Shown one piece after another: positions 3,089 through 15,710 of a DNA stretch of 38,280 nucleotides. Position 1 is the stretch's first letter, and each line of letters begins with the position of its first letter. Position numbers and translations under genes: made by a program. The stretch is from Gemmatimonadota bacterium (GTDB lineage Bacteria > Gemmatimonadota > Gemmatimonadetes > Longimicrobiales > Gaopeijiaceae): the NCBI GenBank assembly GCA_009841165.1, contig VXMI01000082.1, forward strand, positions 1 to 38,280, in the 5' to 3' direction. Below the pieces are notes generated by a model. That model was not told where the DNA came from and did not search any database. It saw only the letters and a program-made list of their open reading frames with translations.

Positions 3089-3523
3089 ATGAAGCCCCAG
3101 GACTTTTCCCACCACGTCAGGCATCCTCCCTTCCTGACGGTCTGGGGCCCCTTCATCCTGGGCCTCCTGGTCTCAGCCTACTTCGTGGCGCGGACCATCT
3201 TCGGTTTCTCGTGGGACAATCTGGCGCTTGCAATTCTTGCGCTCCTGGTCGCATTCGTCGTCCCGCAGTCGCGCCGCCATGCGTTTCCCGTGCAGGACAG
3301 AGTGATCAGGCTTGAGGAGCGGCTGAGGCTGAAGGAGTTGCTTCCGGACGTGCCCGCGGCCCGAATCGACGGCATCCCTACCGACCAGCTCATTGCGCTT
3401 CGCTTCGCGTCGGACGGCGAGGTGGAGGAACTGGTCCAGCGCATCTTCTCCGGCGAACTCGTCAGTCGGCGGGAGATCAAGCGGGCCGTGCGCGAGTGGA
3501 GACCGGACCACGAGCGGGTGTAG
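3089..3523 (+). CDS. DUF6526 family membrane protein
   Basis: A 144-residue protein with two hydrophobic segments (about residues 18-37 and 43-60) separated by a short loop, followed by a soluble tail. The tail contains QDRVIRLEERLRL, QLIALRFASDGE and, at the end, S.REIKRAVREWRPDHERV, which I recognise as the DUF6526 signature. The family has no established role. The gene stands alone and is convergent with the sterol reductase gene, 42 bases away. The ATG at 3089 is preceded by AAAGG about eight bases upstream. Confidence 0.82.
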   Translation: MKPQDFSHHVRHPPFLTVWGPFILGLLVSAYFVARTIFGFSWDNLALAILALLVAFVVPQSRRHAFPVQDRVIRLEERLRLKELLPDVPAARIDGIPTDQLIALRFASDGEVEELVQRIFSGELVSRREIKRAVREWRPDHERV

Positions 3524-3565
3524 GCACCTTGGAACCATCCCACCCAGCGCGATGCAGTCCCCCCG

Positions 3566-4897
3566 TCAGTAGACCCTCGGGATGAAGAGGTACGGCACCT
3601 CCTCGACGTAGCGATCCCAGTCGGCTCCGTATTTCCGCTTGCAGCGCTCGATGTCGCGGCGCGCGCGATGAAGGATCATGATCACGAAGAAGACCAGGTA
3701 GAAATAGGGCAGGAAGTATTCGAAGCCGCAGATCAGTCCCCATGACAGCGCCATGAGGGCGTCGGCCGTGTAGTTGGGCTTGCGAGCGTAGCGCCACCAT
3801 CCGTCGATGAGAAGCTTGGAACCGGCGGCGGTGTCGAGGTGGCGGGGGTTCTCGAGAGTGCGCCAGGGCAACTGCGGGAACGTCCTGCGCTTCACGTACG
3901 AGCCGTTGAGCTGCATGCGAAAGTAGATTCGCTGGCTGTTGGACGTGTCCCAGACGTAGTAGGCTCCGCAAAGGAGGGCGAAGCAGAACACGGTGTAGGG
4001 CAGGGAGTGTTCGAAGGGTGGCCGCGACGCGATGTACATGGAGTTGAAGCTGTAGACAAAGGGCACGCCCGCGAGGTTCCAGAAGATCAACATCCATCCC
4101 CACTTCTCGCGGAAGAAGTCCCACGTCGTCGGAATGCCCTCCTCACCTTTCATGCAGGCGTTGGCGTAGAGGAAATGGGCGACGATCATGAAGATCATGG
4201 GACCGCTGACCCGGCCATGGGCGGCGTACTGGTGCGCTGCGCAGCTCGCCGTCAGCAGAAAGAGCGTGAGCCAGGACACGCGAATCTCCGCCCACATCTT
4301 CAGGTCCAGCTCCCCGATGCGCGGGTTGAGCCGTGCCCCCATGAAGAAGTCGTGGAGGATGTTCGACGACGACCGCTCGGCATTGCCCGAGAGCCTCGCG
4401 CCGACGTACACGGCGACGGCGATCGCGTTCGCGGTGACCATGGCCGCGATCATGAACGAGCCGAACTGCTCGTAGATCGTCTGCAATGGGAAGATGCCCG
4501 AGAAGTGCAGCCCCGCGACGCCGACGAGGGTCAGCCACCAGGCGCTGATTCCATTGCAGCGGTAGACCAGTCGCTCGCCTCCGCGCGACGGGATCGGCAA
4601 ACCCTTGACCTTCAATCCCGGAAGAAAGGCCGACAGCAATCCCTGCACGACGAGAAACGTCCAGTAGATCGCGAACGTGCGCCAGGACGGCGTTGCGTGC
4701 GCAACGACCTGCTCCCAGACCCGCCCCACGAACGACCCCATGTCGGACAACCCGGCCGGGTAGAAGACGGCGCCGTCATGGAAGCGCCAGGCCAGCCACA
4801 GGTAGAGCATCAAGGCGTGCGACACCGTGATGATGAGGCCCGCCCCGAGCGCGCCTCCGAACTCGCGCGCCGCGTCGTCGCCCCTGCGCGCCGTCAT
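3566..4897 (-). CDS. ERG4/ERG24-family sterol reductase
   Basis: Polytopic membrane reductase of the family that includes yeast ERG24 (delta-14), ERG4 (delta-24(28)) and 7-dehydrocholesterol reductase; these use NADPH to saturate a sterol double bond. Both classical family signatures are present: LHDFFMGARLNPR at about residues 181-193, and ILHR..RD...C..KYG.DW close to the C-terminus, followed by VPYLFIPRVY. GWWRYARKPNY precedes signature 2, as in known members. About eight to ten membrane segments can be seen. The start is the ATG at 4897 (443 residues); the frame is open further upstream but those residues look non-coding and the site has no clear Shine-Dalgarno. No other sterol gene is nearby, so the substrate is uncertain. 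Confidence 0.85.
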   Translation of the reverse strand: MTARRGDDAAREFGGALGAGLIITVSHALMLYLWLAWRFHDGAVFYPAGLSDMGSFVGRVWEQVVAHATPSWRTFAIYWTFLVVQGLLSAFLPGLKVKGLPIPSRGGERLVYRCNGISAWWLTLVGVAGLHFSGIFPLQTIYEQFGSFMIAAMVTANAIAVAVYVGARLSGNAERSSSNILHDFFMGARLNPRIGELDLKMWAEIRVSWLTLFLLTASCAAHQYAAHGRVSGPMIFMIVAHFLYANACMKGEEGIPTTWDFFREKWGWMLIFWNLAGVPFVYSFNSMYIASRPPFEHSLPYTVFCFALLCGAYYVWDTSNSQRIYFRMQLNGSYVKRRTFPQLPWRTLENPRHLDTAAGSKLLIDGWWRYARKPNYTADALMALSWGLICGFEYFLPYFYLVFFVIMILHRARRDIERCKRKYGADWDRYVEEVPYLFIPRVY

Positions 4898-5119
4898 CGG
4901 CTGGTTGCCGTGGCCGCCGCCGCCCTCATCGGGACAGTCGGTCCCGGTCCTGGAGGTCGTCAGGATTGATTGGCATCGAATAGACTCGGTTGATCGGGTT
5001 CGGCGGTAGTCCCGGACAGGCCAGGTTCGTCGTCGGTGCAGGATCGGCAACCCTGACGTTGGGCTGACCCCTCCAAGAGCACAACGACCGAACCGATTCC
5101 CGGCCGACCCTTGACGCGC

Positions 5120-5490
5120 CCCGGCGCGCGAGAACCGGCCCGGCGAATTCGTCGACGCGACCGGGTTGATGCTGGATCCGCAGGGATGCATCTGGGCGGC
5201 GGATCCACGTGGCGCGCGTATGTCGGTGTTCGATCCGGTCGATGGGTTCCTGGAGTCCTTTCGCTACCAATACATGGTTCGCGGGTTTATCTGGACGGGC
5301 ATCATGACCGATCGCGGCCACATCCTGAAGCCCTCGATGTCGCGCGAGGACTTTCGACCGATGCTGCGGATCTACGATTCCACGATGACGCAGATCGATT
5401 CAATCTTCTCCGCGGAAGAAGACGAGGGCGGACGAGCTGGACGTGCCCTACGTCGTCCGCGCGAGGATTGTGCCGGTGGAGTGAAATCGG
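5120..5490 (+). pseudogene. Remnant of a six-bladed beta-propeller protein gene
   Basis: The forward frame from about 5120 reads RPGEFVDATGLMLDPQG, then IWAADPRGARMSVFDPVDG and a stretch to MLRIYDSTMTQIDS. This is one or two propeller blades, starting at the GPGEF-type motif that also occurs in the two complete propeller proteins of this window. No start codon, signal peptide or earlier blade precedes it. Near 5430 the plausible frame shifts to one reading DELDVPYVVRARIVPVE, which then stops at about 5490. The gene is truncated on both sides and frameshifted, so I treat it as dead. Confidence 0.55.
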
Positions 5491-5734: not shown

Positions 5735-6928
5735 TCAGTTCGCCGGAAGCAGGCGGTGAACCTGCACCACATCGCTGCCCAGTTCGGTCGTGGTCCGAAT
5801 CACCACGTGCTCTGCCAGGACGGCCATGAGTAGATGTCCGACCGGTAGCGTGATTCTATCGACGAACCCACCCTCTCTATCCACGACATCCCAGACCTGT
5901 CCTCGCGACTCGTCGCTCAACGACGTTTGCCGTTTCACCCAAACCGCTCCGTTCGGCGCGCCGAGCAGTTCCAGCACCAAGGGTTGATGAGGAGGGAAGT
6001 CGACCGTCTGGCGCGCTACCCTACGCAGGGGCTCAAAAGGCCGCCTCCCCCTGAATTCCGTGGGAATGCCGGTGCGAAACCACCACTCCCTGTCCCCCGC
6101 AGTAATCTCGAAGCGATCCTCGATCGGGAGCACAATGGATGTCGTCTGTGTCCCATCCAATCCGACGATCTGCAGTTCTTCGCCGTGGGCCGGCCAATAC
6201 ACGAGTTGTCCCGAAACCACGGTCCATCTGGGGTATGGCGAGAAAGGTGGCCGGAGCGTTAGACCAGGTGCCCCCGGTGCTTCCAGCCGAAGTTCTTCCG
6301 GAGGGTCGTCGAACGACAGCACGGTACCTGCTACGCCCTCGACAGTCCAGGCGACGAGCGCGTTGGCATCGCCCATCGGAGCATAGGCTCGGATGACCAT
6401 AGTATCCCCGCTGGCATGCTCCAAGCGGTTGGCATACGGCAATCCCAGACCGGTCACCGGGGTTGTCAGCTGCAAGCGTCCGGTGAGGTCAAAAACCGAC
6501 ACTCGCCGCTGCGTGGTGTCGAGAGCATACACCTGCCCTCCCACCAAGACTACGTCGGCGGACGACCTGAACTCTCCAGGCCCTTCACCTGCTTCCCCCC
6601 AGCTTCGGATGTGATCACCACGGGAGAGAGAAAACTGGTGCAGCACTGGATCCGATTCAGTCAACACCACCAGCAGCGAATCGTGCGCGTCCAACGCAAT
6701 CACGCCGTTCCAGAGCATTGCATCGCCGCCCAATCGATGGATCGGTTGCGTATCTACACGCAACTGGGCCCTGGCAGCGGAGGGAACCGCTGCCAGGGTT
6801 ACCAGCGTCGCGCACCCGAGTCCGGCAGCTATCCGGCACAGGGTTTGCGCTGCCGGCCGCAGAGCGACGGCCGAGGCGGGCTGCACTTTCTCGAATTCCG
6901 CGACGTTTGCCTTTGTCTTCCAGGGCAC
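5735..6928 (-). CDS. Secreted six-bladed beta-propeller protein
   Basis: A protein of up to 397 residues with a signal peptide: a basic start, a hydrophobic core at about residues 33-49 and an AxA site in PSAARAQ. The mature part has repeated NHL-like blades; the clearest is W.E.GEGPGEF followed by ALDTTQRRVSVFDLTG. The C-terminal blades contain VWVKRQ and VWDVVDREG. Propellers of this type usually bind ligands or proteins at the cell surface; no activity can be assigned. The GTG at 6928 has AGGAG twelve bases upstream, so the real start may be a little further in. The gene lies 105 bases behind an ECF sigma gene on the same strand and may be read with it. Confidence 0.8.
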   Translation of the reverse strand: MPWKTKANVAEFEKVQPASAVALRPAAQTLCRIAAGLGCATLVTLAAVPSAARAQLRVDTQPIHRLGGDAMLWNGVIALDAHDSLLVVLTESDPVLHQFSLSRGDHIRSWGEAGEGPGEFRSSADVVLVGGQVYALDTTQRRVSVFDLTGRLQLTTPVTGLGLPYANRLEHASGDTMVIRAYAPMGDANALVAWTVEGVAGTVLSFDDPPEELRLEAPGAPGLTLRPPFSPYPRWTVVSGQLVYWPAHGEELQIVGLDGTQTTSIVLPIEDRFEITAGDREWWFRTGIPTEFRGRRPFEPLRRVARQTVDFPPHQPLVLELLGAPNGAVWVKRQTSLSDESRGQVWDVVDREGGFVDRITLPVGHLLMAVLAEHVVIRTTTELGSDVVQVHRLLPAN

Positions 6929-7033: not shown

Positions 7034-7555
7034 TCAGTTTCCGCCATCCCATTCTATCAGCAACCTGCGCACAGCCTTCATTCCGCGTAGCCTGTGCATG
7101 GCGCGGTCGAGCGCCGCTCGAGCCGCGCGAACGCTCATCCCGAGCGCCGCCGCCGTGTCCGCTGCACTCCGTCCCTCCAAGAGGCGCAGAACCACCACGT
7201 CTCTTTCACGGTCAGGCAGGCGCGCGAGTGCCTCACTCAGAATACGCCGCTGGAGTTGTAAGCTCAGTACCTCTTCCGGATCCGGTACGTGATCGGCGGT
7301 CTGACTGCCGTGTTTGAGTAACGCCGCTGCCGCTTCGACCCGCTTGCGCTTACGCCACGCTTTCCTGGCAACATTCTTGCTGACCGTGATAGCCCAGGCA
7401 GCAAACGAGCCATCCCGGCGGAAACTGTCCAGGCGGTTGAGGATACGTATCCAGCATTCCTGCAAGATGTCGTTCACATCGTCGTCGTCCAGGGCGTATG
7501 GCCGAATCGCGACTTGAATCCGCGGGCTAAGATCGCGCACAAGCTGATCCAGCAA
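7034..7555 (-). CDS. ECF-type RNA polymerase sigma factor
   Basis: A sigma-70 family protein of about 173 residues with the two ECF regions. Region 2 runs from DDDDVNDILQECWIRIL to FAAWAITVSKNVARKAWRKRKR. Region 4 runs from ALARLPDRERDVVVLRLLEG to the helix-turn-helix AADTAAALGMSVRAARAALDRAMHRLR. There is no ATG or GTG before the conserved part. The best start is TTG 7555, with an in-frame stop at 7571-7573 just upstream. The start region carries a perfect dyad (7570-7586). No zinc-finger anti-sigma gene is adjacent. The neighbours are a propeller gene downstream and a divergent LptF/LptG-like membrane protein gene upstream, a pairing echoed at 18566-20462. Confidence 0.82.
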   Translation of the reverse strand: MLDQLVRDLSPRIQVAIRPYALDDDDVNDILQECWIRILNRLDSFRRDGSFAAWAITVSKNVARKAWRKRKRVEAAAALLKHGSQTADHVPDPEEVLSLQLQRRILSEALARLPDRERDVVVLRLLEGRSAADTAAALGMSVRAARAALDRAMHRLRGMKAVRRLLIEWDGGN

Positions 7556-11371: not shown

Positions 11372-11503
11372 CTAAGGGTGATTGCGAGGCGTTTCGCGGA
11401 GCAGTCGCCTCATCTCATCTCTGAGTGCTCGAAGCTCAGCGGGTGGGTCCGCATGACCGTGGGCGATGAGCAGATCCAGTATCTCGCTGTGGCGATACAC
11501 CAA
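11372..11503 (-). CDS. Small protein gene downstream of propeller lipoprotein
   Basis: Seventeen bases after the propeller lipoprotein stop, a frame starting at TTG 11503 (or GTG 11500) codes for about 43 residues ending at 11372. It reads as one amphipathic, highly charged helix: YRHSEILDLLIAHGHA, PPAELRALRDEMRRLLRE. The frame is open further upstream into the propeller stop region. The amino-acid make-up is that of a real coiled-coil-forming helix rather than a shadow. There is no family match that I know. It would be the third gene of the peptide-propeller operon. Confidence 0.4.
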   Translation of the reverse strand: MVYRHSEILDLLIAHGHADPPAELRALRDEMRRLLRETPRNHP

Positions 11504-11519
11504 ATCCGCAAACAGTTTC

Positions 11520-12734
11520 TCATTTCACAAGCCCATCGGCATCTGTTGGCCTCAGCTGAATTGTGTTCATCGCCGCGCTATCCAATCTGTAGATCTGAAT
11601 GTATGGCACTCCGAGGTCGTCCCGACCTGCACCGATGATCCGATCATCTCGTATAGCGTATGGCCGAAATCCCGACGGCAGTCGTACCGAAGCCCAATGC
11701 TCCCCGGTCGAATCAAATGCTGCCCACTCCAGGATCGCTCGGTCGATCTTCCGAATCCCGACCCAGATTCGTTCGTTGTTGTCTACGAACATCCCCGTGA
11801 TCGGAGGCCATGTGTACGGCGCACCCTCCCGCAGCACACCGGCGAAGTTTCGTAGGCGACGTTCCGCCGCTCGCAGCTCTTGTCTTGTCACAGGAAGAGG
11901 CGCGGTGTCATACTCAAATGCCTTCTGGATTCGATCCCGGACATTAACAACAGTGATTTCGAGGGCCAGAGATGTTGCATACACGACCCGGTCACCGTCG
12001 AGTACATCAGTGAACGATCTTCGACCAAATGGATGACCCGCCACGCTGACAGCTTGACCGCGTGAGTTTCCTCGCCGCCGTACTAGTGCTTCATTGGAAG
12101 GAAAGGAGAATAAGGAATCGGCCATGGCCACCTCGTCGTTCCACGACAGGTGTCGCAGTACGTCCACGCGCAACGAATCCTCATTTCGGCCATCCGCATA
12201 GTACGCGCGCGACGTCCGTCCAACATAGTCGCCCCGTCCCGGCAGCCTCTGCATGTTCGAGAAACTGATCCCTGTGGTGCGGAAATCCTGCGTGTACGCA
12301 GCATGCGAGGAATCACCTGGCGCGAACACAGTAATGCGATCCACCGTGGCATCATAGACCAGCAGACTATCGTCCGGCAGTATCTGAAGTGACCATACAT
12401 TCTGGAATTCACCGGGTCCCTCGCCCCTCTTTCCGATCATGCGGTCGTATGCCAGACTCGGTGACAGGACTATCACGCTGGCCGTTTGACCATCGGCGAC
12501 ATATACACGTCCACGGGAATCGATTGCCATGTCACTTATGTACGACAAGAGCGTGTCGGTGCTGGATGTCAACGCCAACGTCGTCGCCAGTATTGGGCCA
12601 CGAGCCCACGAACGTGCGTCGCCGATGTTGGTTTCCTCGCCTTGAGGATCGGCGCCACAAGCGACTAGGGTCGCGAACAACAAAGGGACGATCGGAAGGC
12701 GAAGGCTCGTCGCTAGTCTGAATCGCGTCATCAT
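11520..12734 (-). CDS. Six-bladed beta-propeller lipoprotein
   Basis: A 404-residue lipoprotein: two adjacent ATG starts (12734, 12731) follow GGAAG at good spacing, and a hydrophobic signal ends in the lipobox LVAC (Cys about residue 26). The mature protein is a propeller with recognisable blades: SYISDMAIDSRGRVYVADG, GKRGEGPGEF followed by LQILPDDSLLVYDA and ITVF, and late blades with MFVDNNERIWVGIRK and RDDLGVPYIQIYRL. It should be anchored in a membrane and act outside the cytoplasm. The gene directly upstream encodes a short cysteine-rich exported peptide, and a small helical protein may follow. This layout resembles the Bacteroidetes pairing of such propellers with NVEALA-type peptides. 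Confidence 0.82.
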   Translation of the reverse strand: MMTRFRLATSLRLPIVPLLFATLVACGADPQGEETNIGDARSWARGPILATTLALTSSTDTLLSYISDMAIDSRGRVYVADGQTASVIVLSPSLAYDRMIGKRGEGPGEFQNVWSLQILPDDSLLVYDATVDRITVFAPGDSSHAAYTQDFRTTGISFSNMQRLPGRGDYVGRTSRAYYADGRNEDSLRVDVLRHLSWNDEVAMADSLFSFPSNEALVRRRGNSRGQAVSVAGHPFGRRSFTDVLDGDRVVYATSLALEITVVNVRDRIQKAFEYDTAPLPVTRQELRAAERRLRNFAGVLREGAPYTWPPITGMFVDNNERIWVGIRKIDRAILEWAAFDSTGEHWASVRLPSGFRPYAIRDDRIIGAGRDDLGVPYIQIYRLDSAAMNTIQLRPTDADGLVK

Positions 12735-12785
12735 GTCAGCTTCCAGTATTGGGTCTTGGTGAGTGGTGTCATGTGGAGTGTTCCA

Positions 12786-13010
12786 TTAGTTTATGGTATC
12801 CCAGAAGTAGCAATAGAACTGACTGCCGTTGCACGCAGCGCATCCGTGGACAAGTACAATACATCTCTTGCCGCAACAGACAGAGTCGAAGTCTTCGTTC
12901 TCGCAACAAGTCTGCTCGTCCGCTTGCTGCGCTGGAAGTGGATGGGACAACGTCCAGCCTCCAACAAAGACAACCAAGGCGGCGATGATTGCTACTCTGG
13001 CTCGGGACAT
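12786..13010 (-). CDS. Short exported cysteine-rich peptide
   Basis: A 74-residue protein starting at ATG 13010, with AGGAGA nine bases upstream. Residues 6-20 are a hydrophobic segment (VAIIAALVVFVGGWT) followed by a possible AxA-like cut near LPAQQA (residues 25-30). The remaining 44 residues hold eight cysteines at 35, 36, 45, 46, 50, 57, 60 and 67, with several aromatic residues at the end. The even number suggests four disulfides or a modified peptide. The gene ends 51 bases before the propeller lipoprotein gene on the same strand. I recognise no exact family. By layout it resembles NVEALA-type exported peptides that accompany six-bladed propeller lipoproteins in Bacteroidetes, but the NVEALA motif itself is absent. 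Confidence 0.7.
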   Translation of the reverse strand: MSRARVAIIAALVVFVGGWTLSHPLPAQQADEQTCCENEDFDSVCCGKRCIVLVHGCAACNGSQFYCYFWDTIN

Positions 13011-13149
13011 GTGGGACAATCTCCTAGTTTTGGGAAGACACGCAAGCGTCCGGTTTCTCGTCTGGTCGGCGCGAGTCTGGACGATGGACGGCAGGCGTCG
13101 GATCGCGCAAGTGCTCGAGGCATCCACGGACCGGCCTCGACCCACCCCC

Positions 13150-15525
13150 CTATTCCACCTCACCCCCAAGCCGCACCCACGCATCCGCACGCGCGCCGTA
13201 CTCCGCGATCCCCTCTCGATCGCCTGCCTGCTCCGCATGCTTGAGCAGCGCCAGGTACACCCAGGAGTAGTAGTGGGGGATGCCGATCGTCGACCTGTCC
13301 TTCCACACCGGCCAATCCGGCAGGCCGCTCCGGTGTACGAACACGTCGTCGGCCAGTGTCCGCGTGCGCTCGACATCGACCCAGGGGCCCACCCGTATCG
13401 AATGCGGGTCGACGGCCCGGTTCGCCATGACGCCGGAGTCGGCCAGCTCGGCGGGATCGCCCGGCCACAACCGGAATGCCAGGCCTTGTCGAATCACGTA
13501 TGGGCGCACGCCGAGTTCGTACGGCGCGGTGCCGCTTGACGCGAAGTAGATGGGCCGGTCGCCAATCGAGTTCCGGATCGCCCAGAGCCCGAATACCTGC
13601 CAGGGAGCGAGTCCCCGCTGCCCTGTGATGACCCCCGAGATCGGACCCAGCGGGACGGCCTGAACGCTGTCGATCGGCACGAATTGCGCAGCCGTCTGTT
13701 CGATGGCCTGGTCGGTGAACCGCGACTCGTCGAGGATCGAGCGGGTCGGCACCCGGATCGCCTCGCGCAGGAGGATCGGGATCTTGCCGAGCGCCTCCGC
13801 CTCGGCCGGATCGTGCGTGTACATGCTGTCGGTGTTCTCGGCGGTATAGGGACGCTGGCAAAGGATGCGGGTCGGGTCTTCGTCGGGGTCCTCGCCGGGC
13901 TCACAGGGCCTCGTGAGGTCCCGGAGCTGCTGGACGTACCAGGGGATGTTGAAGTACGAGGTCACCGCCACGGTCACGTCCCGCCGGATTCCCTCCACCT
14001 CCTGCAGGTACCAGAGCGGGAACGTGTCGTTGTCGCCAACGGTGAAGATCAGGCCGTACGGCTCGACGCTCATGAGCAGGTTGTAGGCCCAGTCGCGCGC
14101 CGAGTGATCCCCGGCCCTGCTGGCCCAGTTGAAGTTGAGGACCAGGGGGATCAGGGCCAGCCCCAGCACGGGGGCGCAGAACATCAGCGACCGCCCGGAC
14201 TTTCGCCGAACCCGGTCCCACAGGCCCACGATCCCGATCCCGGCCAGGAGCCCCCACACCGAGAAGCCGATCATGAAGAAGTAGTCCCGCTCGCGCGCCT
14301 CGGTGAGGTCGCTGAGCGTCCGCGCGCCGGCTTCCCGCATGGCGCGCTGCAGGGCGTCGCCTTCGGGCAGCGGCATGGAGAAGCCGGGCTTGAAGTTCAT
14401 GTAGAAGACGAGGGCCACCGAGAGCACGGCGAAGAGCGTCGCCATGTAGGCCCAGCCCGCGCGGTCCCGCCGGTAATACTGCATCGCGCCGAAGATGCCC
14501 AGGGCGATGAAGAGCACCGTGAAGGGTGCCCGGAGCCGTCCGAAGAGGACGTCGTCCGAAGAGAGGCCGCGGGACCACTGCCAGTCGAAGTACTGCATCC
14601 AGTTCGTGTACTGTTCCGGAATGGATGCCTGCCGAACCGTGAGGTACCGTTCGGGATACTGCTCGCGCTTGATCGCGGCGGAGAGCTCCTCGCACCCGGC
14701 ATTCCCATAGGTAACGGCGCTGGCGAGCGCCGCCCCGACGTTCTCGCAGTTCGGCTCGGCCTGGTTGATCACGGGCCCCAGCCCGGAACGGACCGGCAGG
14801 AAGAGGTGAATGCTGAGCCCGAGCGCGACCGCGGGAATGCCGAACAGGTAGATGCGGTAGTTCAGCAGCGTGGAGGGGCGCACCAGGAAGAAGAAGACCG
14901 CCAGCGCCGGCGCCGCCAGGAAGGCCATCAGGTGGTTGCCGACCGACAGCGCCAGGATGAACGCCATCAGGATGAGGAGGTTGCCTTCCCTGCCGCGCCC
15001 GAGACGCTCCCGCCAGCGGAATGCCAGCCAGGAGAGGAGCGCAACGGTGAAGAGGGAAACCGTGTAGACCTTCTCGTTGACGTTCGACTGGTTCCAGACC
15101 GTAAACGCGGTCGCGCTGACCAGGACGGCAGCGGCCGCGCCGACGAGGCGGAAGCGCCGGTCGGTGGAGAAGTGCCCGAGGATGTGATGGACCACCAGGA
15201 ACCACATCCCGTGCGCCAGTGAACTCATCAGCACCGAGAAGAGGTTGATGCGGACCGCGCTCGAGAGCCCGAACGGGGACAGAAGGATCTCCCAGGTTCG
15301 GGCCATGACTACGAAGAGGGGATTCCCGGGGGGATGGGGGATGCCCAGGATGTGGGCGGTCGCGATGTATTCGCTGGCGTCCCAGAAGGCCGTGCCCGGC
15401 GAGAGCGTCACGGTGTAGAGGATCCCGATCGCGAACGCGGCCACTCCCGCCCAGAGGTACGGCGGACCGTCTTCGGATCCGGTGTTGTTCGCGTGATGGC
15501 GCTGGAGAGTGGCTTTCGGGTTCAT
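13150..15525 (-). CDS. DUF2723 (TMEM260-like) membrane glycosyltransferase-family protein
   Basis: A 791-residue polytopic protein of the DUF2723 family, related to GT117 and eukaryotic TMEM260 O-mannosyltransferase. The start is ATG 15525 with CCGGAG six bases upstream. The family hallmark sits in the first periplasmic loop: FWDASEYIATAHILGI followed by PHPPGNPLF, with the acidic D.SE that is probably catalytic in this GT-C fold. About ten membrane segments span residues 25-470. They are followed by a large soluble C-terminal part that begins with a conserved VGDNDTFPLWYLQ and ends in a TPR-like helix region (YLALLKHAEQAGDREGIAEYG). It probably transfers a lipid-linked sugar to exported proteins. 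The stop is 139 bases before the Cys-rich peptide gene. Confidence 0.85.
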   Translation of the reverse strand: MNPKATLQRHHANNTGSEDGPPYLWAGVAAFAIGILYTVTLSPGTAFWDASEYIATAHILGIPHPPGNPLFVVMARTWEILLSPFGLSSAVRINLFSVLMSSLAHGMWFLVVHHILGHFSTDRRFRLVGAAAAVLVSATAFTVWNQSNVNEKVYTVSLFTVALLSWLAFRWRERLGRGREGNLLILMAFILALSVGNHLMAFLAAPALAVFFFLVRPSTLLNYRIYLFGIPAVALGLSIHLFLPVRSGLGPVINQAEPNCENVGAALASAVTYGNAGCEELSAAIKREQYPERYLTVRQASIPEQYTNWMQYFDWQWSRGLSSDDVLFGRLRAPFTVLFIALGIFGAMQYYRRDRAGWAYMATLFAVLSVALVFYMNFKPGFSMPLPEGDALQRAMREAGARTLSDLTEARERDYFFMIGFSVWGLLAGIGIVGLWDRVRRKSGRSLMFCAPVLGLALIPLVLNFNWASRAGDHSARDWAYNLLMSVEPYGLIFTVGDNDTFPLWYLQEVEGIRRDVTVAVTSYFNIPWYVQQLRDLTRPCEPGEDPDEDPTRILCQRPYTAENTDSMYTHDPAEAEALGKIPILLREAIRVPTRSILDESRFTDQAIEQTAAQFVPIDSVQAVPLGPISGVITGQRGLAPWQVFGLWAIRNSIGDRPIYFASSGTAPYELGVRPYVIRQGLAFRLWPGDPAELADSGVMANRAVDPHSIRVGPWVDVERTRTLADDVFVHRSGLPDWPVWKDRSTIGIPHYYSWVYLALLKHAEQAGDREGIAEYGARADAWVRLGGEVE

Positions 15526-15710
15526 TTGTGCTCCGGAGTCATCGATTTCTGTCGCCCTGCTGGGCCGCAAGCCTCGTCAGCGGCAGAGAGGGGGTTTGCG
15601 ACTTCGATCCCGGGCGGGTTGAAGTGGTTGCTGATCGGACGATTCGCCCGCCGCGGATGACACCGAAGCCCGCTATGTCGGTAACGGCGAGGTTGCTGCT
15701 TTGGTCAGAC

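Follow-up and report, generated by a model that had tools for sequence, protein, structure and literature searches.

Our analysis identified an unnamed family of exported cysteine-rich peptides in Gemmatimonadota, which lies outside the annotation libraries searched (Pfam, NCBIfam, and PADLOC). In most relatives the unit contains, in addition to the peptide and a propeller lipoprotein, a third gene for a DsbA-like thiol oxidoreductase, which replaces the propeller or is fused to it in some cases, and which had been overlooked earlier. The family, its gene layout, its enrichment next to these partners, the co-inheritance with the propeller and the fusions were established directly from the sequences. 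We assign a probability of about 0.5 to the reading that these loci encode an oxidatively folded, exported peptide with a cognate propeller partner, most likely acting outward in competition or signalling.

Peptide and propeller genes of the window

The window, the whole stretch of 38,280 nucleotides that was analysed, carries on its minus strand a gene for a 74-aa peptide with eight cysteine residues (P0001, positions 12786–13010), recognised from its ORF, its signal-peptide-like N-terminus and the family alignments. ORF calling and signal-peptide detection were heuristic. In the ORF translation, a Sec-type leader of about residues 1–30 precedes a core with the pattern CC-x8-CC-G-x2-C-x6-C-x2-C-x6-C, and a Shine-Dalgarno sequence, AGGAG (13021–13025, minus strand), is located 10 nt before the ATG. 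P0001 scored an E-value of 8.6e-23 against the family profile in the search of its own genome, and had no match in Pfam, NCBIfam, or PADLOC; the family profile found no match among the PDB sequences. The AF2 model of the peptide was uninformative (pLDDT 52).

A 404-aa lipoprotein (P0002, 11520–12734, minus strand) starts 51 nt downstream of the peptide gene. It is a member of DUF5128 (PF17170) by score (25.6 bits; curated cut-off 22.9), and its lipobox, LVA-C26, contains a cysteine that is invariant across 15 homologues. A low-confidence AF2 model (pLDDT 53, pTM 0.55) matched the six-bladed NHL propeller of Brat in Foldseek (E 5e-9), with BF0058 of Bacteroides fragilis (PDB 4raa) among the best fold matches, and at the sequence level P0002 matched NHL/Pizza6. 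P0002 thus resembles the DUF5128 propellers and BF0058 by profile score and fold, and differs from DUF5128 propellers generally in belonging to a Gemmatimonadota sub-clade associated with CC-CCG peptides. The pairing described in the initial annotation, an exported 74-residue peptide with eight cysteines directly upstream of a six-bladed propeller lipoprotein, is therefore upheld by the ORF, the signal-like N-terminus, the AGGAG sequence, the PF17170 match, and the 51-nt spacing.

The same annotation had suggested that a 43-residue helical protein may come after the propeller. This ORF (11372–11503, minus strand) begins with TTG, lacks a visible Shine-Dalgarno sequence and has no homologue in any of the fetched loci, and a DsbA-like gene occupies its place in related loci. 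It is probably not a gene, and we rejected it as a third member of the unit. Among the scanned window neighbours there was no Pfam match to the radical SAM, YcaO, or lanthipeptide synthetase enzymes of a RiPP-type locus, and no immunity or export gene was identified within the window. Elsewhere in the window, a second DUF5128 propeller adjoins an ECF sigma factor gene and has no Cys peptide (5735–6928 and 7034–7555), and a protein of the ERG4/ERG24 sterol reductase family, here in a bacterium, is encoded at 3566–5191 (E 6.6e-129).

The window copy looks like an accessory insertion. The gene flanking the pair, for a TMEM260-like glycosyltransferase (13150–15570, minus strand; PF11028, E 2e-39), lies outside the module, marks the insertion point and was present in all 23 of the 23 genus members searched. 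Homology to genomes G002 (96% identical there), G004, and G012 ends at about position 13160, at the end of this gene, indicating that the peptide-propeller pair is accessory. The GC content is 52% for the peptide gene and 57% for the propeller gene, as against 64% for the whole window. We also considered a local DsbA remnant, but neither a DsbA gene nor a remnant was found between 9000 and 13400; folding of the window peptide would thus depend on a DsbA encoded elsewhere.

A family with conserved leaders and hypervariable cores

BLAST searches against relatives detected homologues of P0001 with E-values down to 4.5e-9, and the profile derived from them recovered members in the genus, family, order, and class (about 15 other Gemmatimonadota loci). 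With a threshold of E<=0.001, the class-level profile search yielded matches in 18 of 295 genomes, including a few spurious ones at the weak end, and the phylum-level search matched 18 of 395 genomes, with every match within the class. Only part of the candidates was scored in each genome, so the absence of the peptide from a genome is soft evidence. No peptide relatives were found in viral contigs or plasmids, and a search of genome contigs with one peptide gave a single match, on the same contig as that of the genus relative G022.

Six cysteine residues (CC...CC...C...C) are invariant in the 17 aligned family members, with the spacing CC-x(n)-CCG-x2-C-x(n)-C, and two further cysteines follow in several of them. 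The leader is of the type M-K/N-R-x2-LN-x-LA-x4-L-x-GG (LNLLA...GG); P0001 shows the family's cysteine pattern and the leader's GGW, but lacks the LN. Mean identity in the family alignment was 42% for the leader columns versus 17% for the non-Cys columns of the mature part. Peptide genes are often repeated in tandem, with three copies each in G022, G090, and G289 and two each in G033, G063, G079, and G084; in the G022 copies the leaders are 89–92% identical and the cores 42–65%.

The tandem-copy leaders are near-identical even at synonymous sites (pS 0.10–0.17) and the cores are diverged (pS 0.38–0.70; L050, positions 1485–1938 and 3360–3572), as if the leaders had been homogenised or shuffled. 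Positive selection was not seen in the tandem copies, pN/pS being below 1 in most pairs of these short and partly saturated sequences. The unnamed family with a signal-plus-cysteines pattern that had been proposed is supported by the family alignment, the partner-like placement beside the propeller, and the correspondence between peptide type and propeller type described below.

Gene neighbourhoods and the DsbA-like partner

The peptides were collected by peptide similarity alone, and since genomic context was not used in finding them, the neighbourhoods constitute an independent test. At essentially every intact peptide locus, the next genes on the same strand encode a propeller and/or a DsbA-like oxidoreductase with a membrane anchor. 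The order peptide(s)-propeller-DsbA was found in G044, G022, G033/G106, G020, G079, G084, and G275; peptide and propeller alone in the window, in G063 (at a contig end) and, more weakly, in G257; and peptide and DsbA in G090, G289, G317, G059, G063, and G073. The one clear exception was G006, in which the peptide is disrupted. The genome from which the window was taken contains a second and complete module (G000:C221), with a 90-aa peptide of 10 cysteines, a propeller, and a DsbA. In G022 and G007, a single fusion protein of 596–599 aa combines DsbA and propeller, and a Cys-peptide ORF lies directly upstream.

The DsbA-like neighbours are membrane-anchored, belong to Thioredoxin_4/DSBA by score, carry the motif DFQCPFC, and are closest to solved DsbA/BdbD oxidases. 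A thioredoxin-fold neighbour, a high cysteine content and CC pairs might also be expected if the peptide buffered thiol redox state or metals in the envelope instead of being held together by structural disulfides. However, the number of cysteines ranges from 4 to 11 between modules, their spacing is variable too, no metal motif is conserved and the neighbour resembles oxidases most closely, so that we regard such a buffer as very unlikely.

Other genes and peptide types were observed in these neighbourhoods. In two peptide modules of G073, the gene after DsbA encodes a small PDZ-domain protein (L161:4265–4717 and L170:5148–5648). A separate family of 10-Cys peptides, with the leader [IV]IR[AS]LGVLAI-x-LMA, precedes its own propeller and DsbA at five loci (L220, L223, L225, L238, and L239). 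A second peptide type, CCRG-x-G-x-EAYCC-x2-CCW...C...C, was found at L057:4392–4607 (in the window's own genome, G000:C103), L055:9024–9203, L074:1462–1662, and L049:5928–6146, and is followed in three of these four loci by an unnamed membrane protein of ~267 aa. The L057 locus also encodes an ECF sigma factor and a putative anti-sigma factor, with a divergent TlpA-like redoxin and a propeller nearby.

Enrichment and co-inheritance

As a control, we selected 37 loci solely by the presence of this DsbA type. Upstream of DsbA and on its strand, these loci contained 23 short ORFs for exported products with >=5 Cys, whereas the opposite strand had none; the density was 0.44 per kb versus 0.021 elsewhere (about 21-fold). 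A peptide was present at 21 of the 37 loci, including G000:C221, and a propeller at 19. When all loci were pooled, ORFs with >=6 Cys were 39-fold enriched, in a set that includes loci chosen for the peptide.

The reverse search gave a different picture. Only 5 of 27 close homologues of the window propeller have such a peptide. The rule that every propeller of this kind has a peptide was therefore rejected; the other 22 homologues indicate that the link is one-way, with the peptide implying a partner and not the reverse, and that the propellers also serve other functions or bind other ligands. For the proposal that related propellers share an upstream peptide, the outcome is mixed: the peptide does have homologues, but most close propeller homologues lack one upstream. 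These peptide-less propellers, together with the abundance of DUF5128-like propellers in the window's own genome (at least 43 loci in 4.27 Mb), could suggest that a peptide lands beside a propeller by chance. The upstream enrichment with no counterpart on the opposite strand, the co-inheritance and the repetition of the layout in several genera make such a chance neighbourhood extremely improbable.

In a quick propeller tree, the CC-CCG-linked propellers fell in one clade (24 rows, SH-aLRT 88), many members of which are peptide-less, among them the sisters of the window propeller. We prefer a scenario in which the peptide may have been present ancestrally, with later losses, although the tree counts changes and leaves their direction unproven. 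Across 16 modules, peptide similarity was correlated with propeller distance (Spearman rho -0.68; 0 of 5000 permutations). Shared species ancestry inflates this correlation, but in genomes with two modules each peptide type stays with its propeller type, which argues against ancestry as the whole cause.

Comparison with known systems

According to the initial annotation, NVEALA-type short exported peptides of Bacteroidetes adjoin DUF5128-like six-bladed propellers. The parallel drawn with them holds only as an analogy of layout: both groups are short exported peptides with many variants, here encoded directly upstream of a six-bladed propeller and in Bacteroidetes said to be next to one. However, the NVEALA profile itself (PF14055) matched neither P0001 nor the 17 family members; no protein of the 59 relatives exceeded its cut-off, which was passed in one of 14 control genomes. 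We therefore rejected NVEALA membership; the Gemmatimonadota peptides differ in their cysteine pattern (CC..CCG..C..C), their leader, and their DsbA partner. In the literature library searched, neither NVEALA nor DUF5128 was the subject of a paper.

In methylamine dehydrogenase, a disulfide-rich small subunit is combined with a propeller large subunit, and a thioredoxin-like maturase (MauD/MauE) is involved. The modules described here likewise comprise a small partner that is presumably rich in disulfides, a propeller as the large partner, and a thioredoxin-like enzyme. The peptide might accordingly belong to an envelope enzyme as its small subunit, structural or catalytic, with the propeller as the large subunit and DsbA as a subunit-specific maturase, and the co-inheritance of peptide and propeller types, the presence of DsbA in the unit and the DsbA-propeller fusions would fit this arrangement. 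However, a subunit would be expected to have a conserved core, yet the non-Cys core is hypervariable; the alignment of family A lacks any conserved Trp in the mature part, and hence the Trp pair required for a TTQ-like cofactor. The propeller is a six-bladed lipoprotein, several modules have no propeller, and neither tandem copies nor frequent loss would be usual for a subunit. An enzyme subunit thus appears unlikely.

The sublancin (glycocin) operon, sunA-sunT-bdbA-sunS-bdbB, has its own thiol oxidoreductase, BdbB (PMC6391423), and so shares with our modules a short secreted peptide and a dedicated thiol-disulfide oxidoreductase. It differs in having a leader removed by SunT rather than a Sec signal, and a glycosyltransferase; a propeller lipoprotein partner is found here instead. 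The peptide may be a bacteriocin-type toxin and the propeller lipoprotein its immunity or sequestering protein. The conserved leader with hypervariable cores, the tandem copies, the accessory occurrence, the matching of peptide type to propeller type and the dedicated oxidoreductase would all be consistent with such a toxin. Propeller-less modules (G090, G289, G317, G059, and G073) and the many close propellers without a peptide are not readily accommodated, and we consider an immunity-paired toxin improbable.

Small disulfide-bonded peptides have also been described as exported by Sec, then processed by DsbA and passed on by MacB (PMC5985334). This Sec-DsbA-MacAB-TolC route has in common with our loci an exported Cys peptide, a DsbA-type enzyme and, by raw count, in three propeller-less modules, a MacB-like ADOP permease (TIGR03434) directly after DsbA (L056:1–1890, L165:7083–9566, and L167:2751–5216). 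However, neither MacA nor TolC was seen, and the window locus has no ADOP permease.

Proposed mechanism and implications

Our preferred reading remains that of an exported, oxidatively folded peptide with a cognate propeller. The window pair would be the central part of a larger unit, which most relatives encode as three genes, for the exported Cys-rich peptide, the propeller lipoprotein and the membrane-anchored DsbA. The peptide would be exported by Sec and its conserved leader then removed, after which the DsbA-type enzyme would join its cysteines into disulfides in the periplasm. Most relatives have the gene for this enzyme in the immediate neighbourhood, and the window peptide would be served in trans, for example by that of G000:C221. 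As the cognate partner, the propeller lipoprotein would bind the folded peptide and either hold it at the envelope or present it there, and we infer that the propeller may act as a receptor or carrier, with the peptide probably located at the surface or secreted. Hypervariable cores on fixed cysteines, tandem copies, and gain and loss among close relatives suggest that the peptide most likely acts outward. Its role, which may be antagonism, signalling or that of an enzyme subunit, is the least certain step of this mechanism.

More tentatively, and at odds we would put clearly below even, the modules may represent an undescribed envelope system across the sampled Gemmatimonadota class. Its disulfide peptides would diversify behind a shared leader, each being oxidised by its own membrane DsbA and recognised by a cognate propeller (sometimes fused to DsbA), and the system would serve as a weapon against other bacteria or for recognition among them. 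The family suggests that this phylum, which is mostly uncultured, harbours a class of natural disulfide peptides absent from Pfam, NCBIfam, and PADLOC. Lipoproteins with DUF5128-type propellers have greatly expanded in number in these genomes, and the subset associated with a Cys peptide and a disulfide enzyme offers a direct, testable hypothesis as to their ligand.
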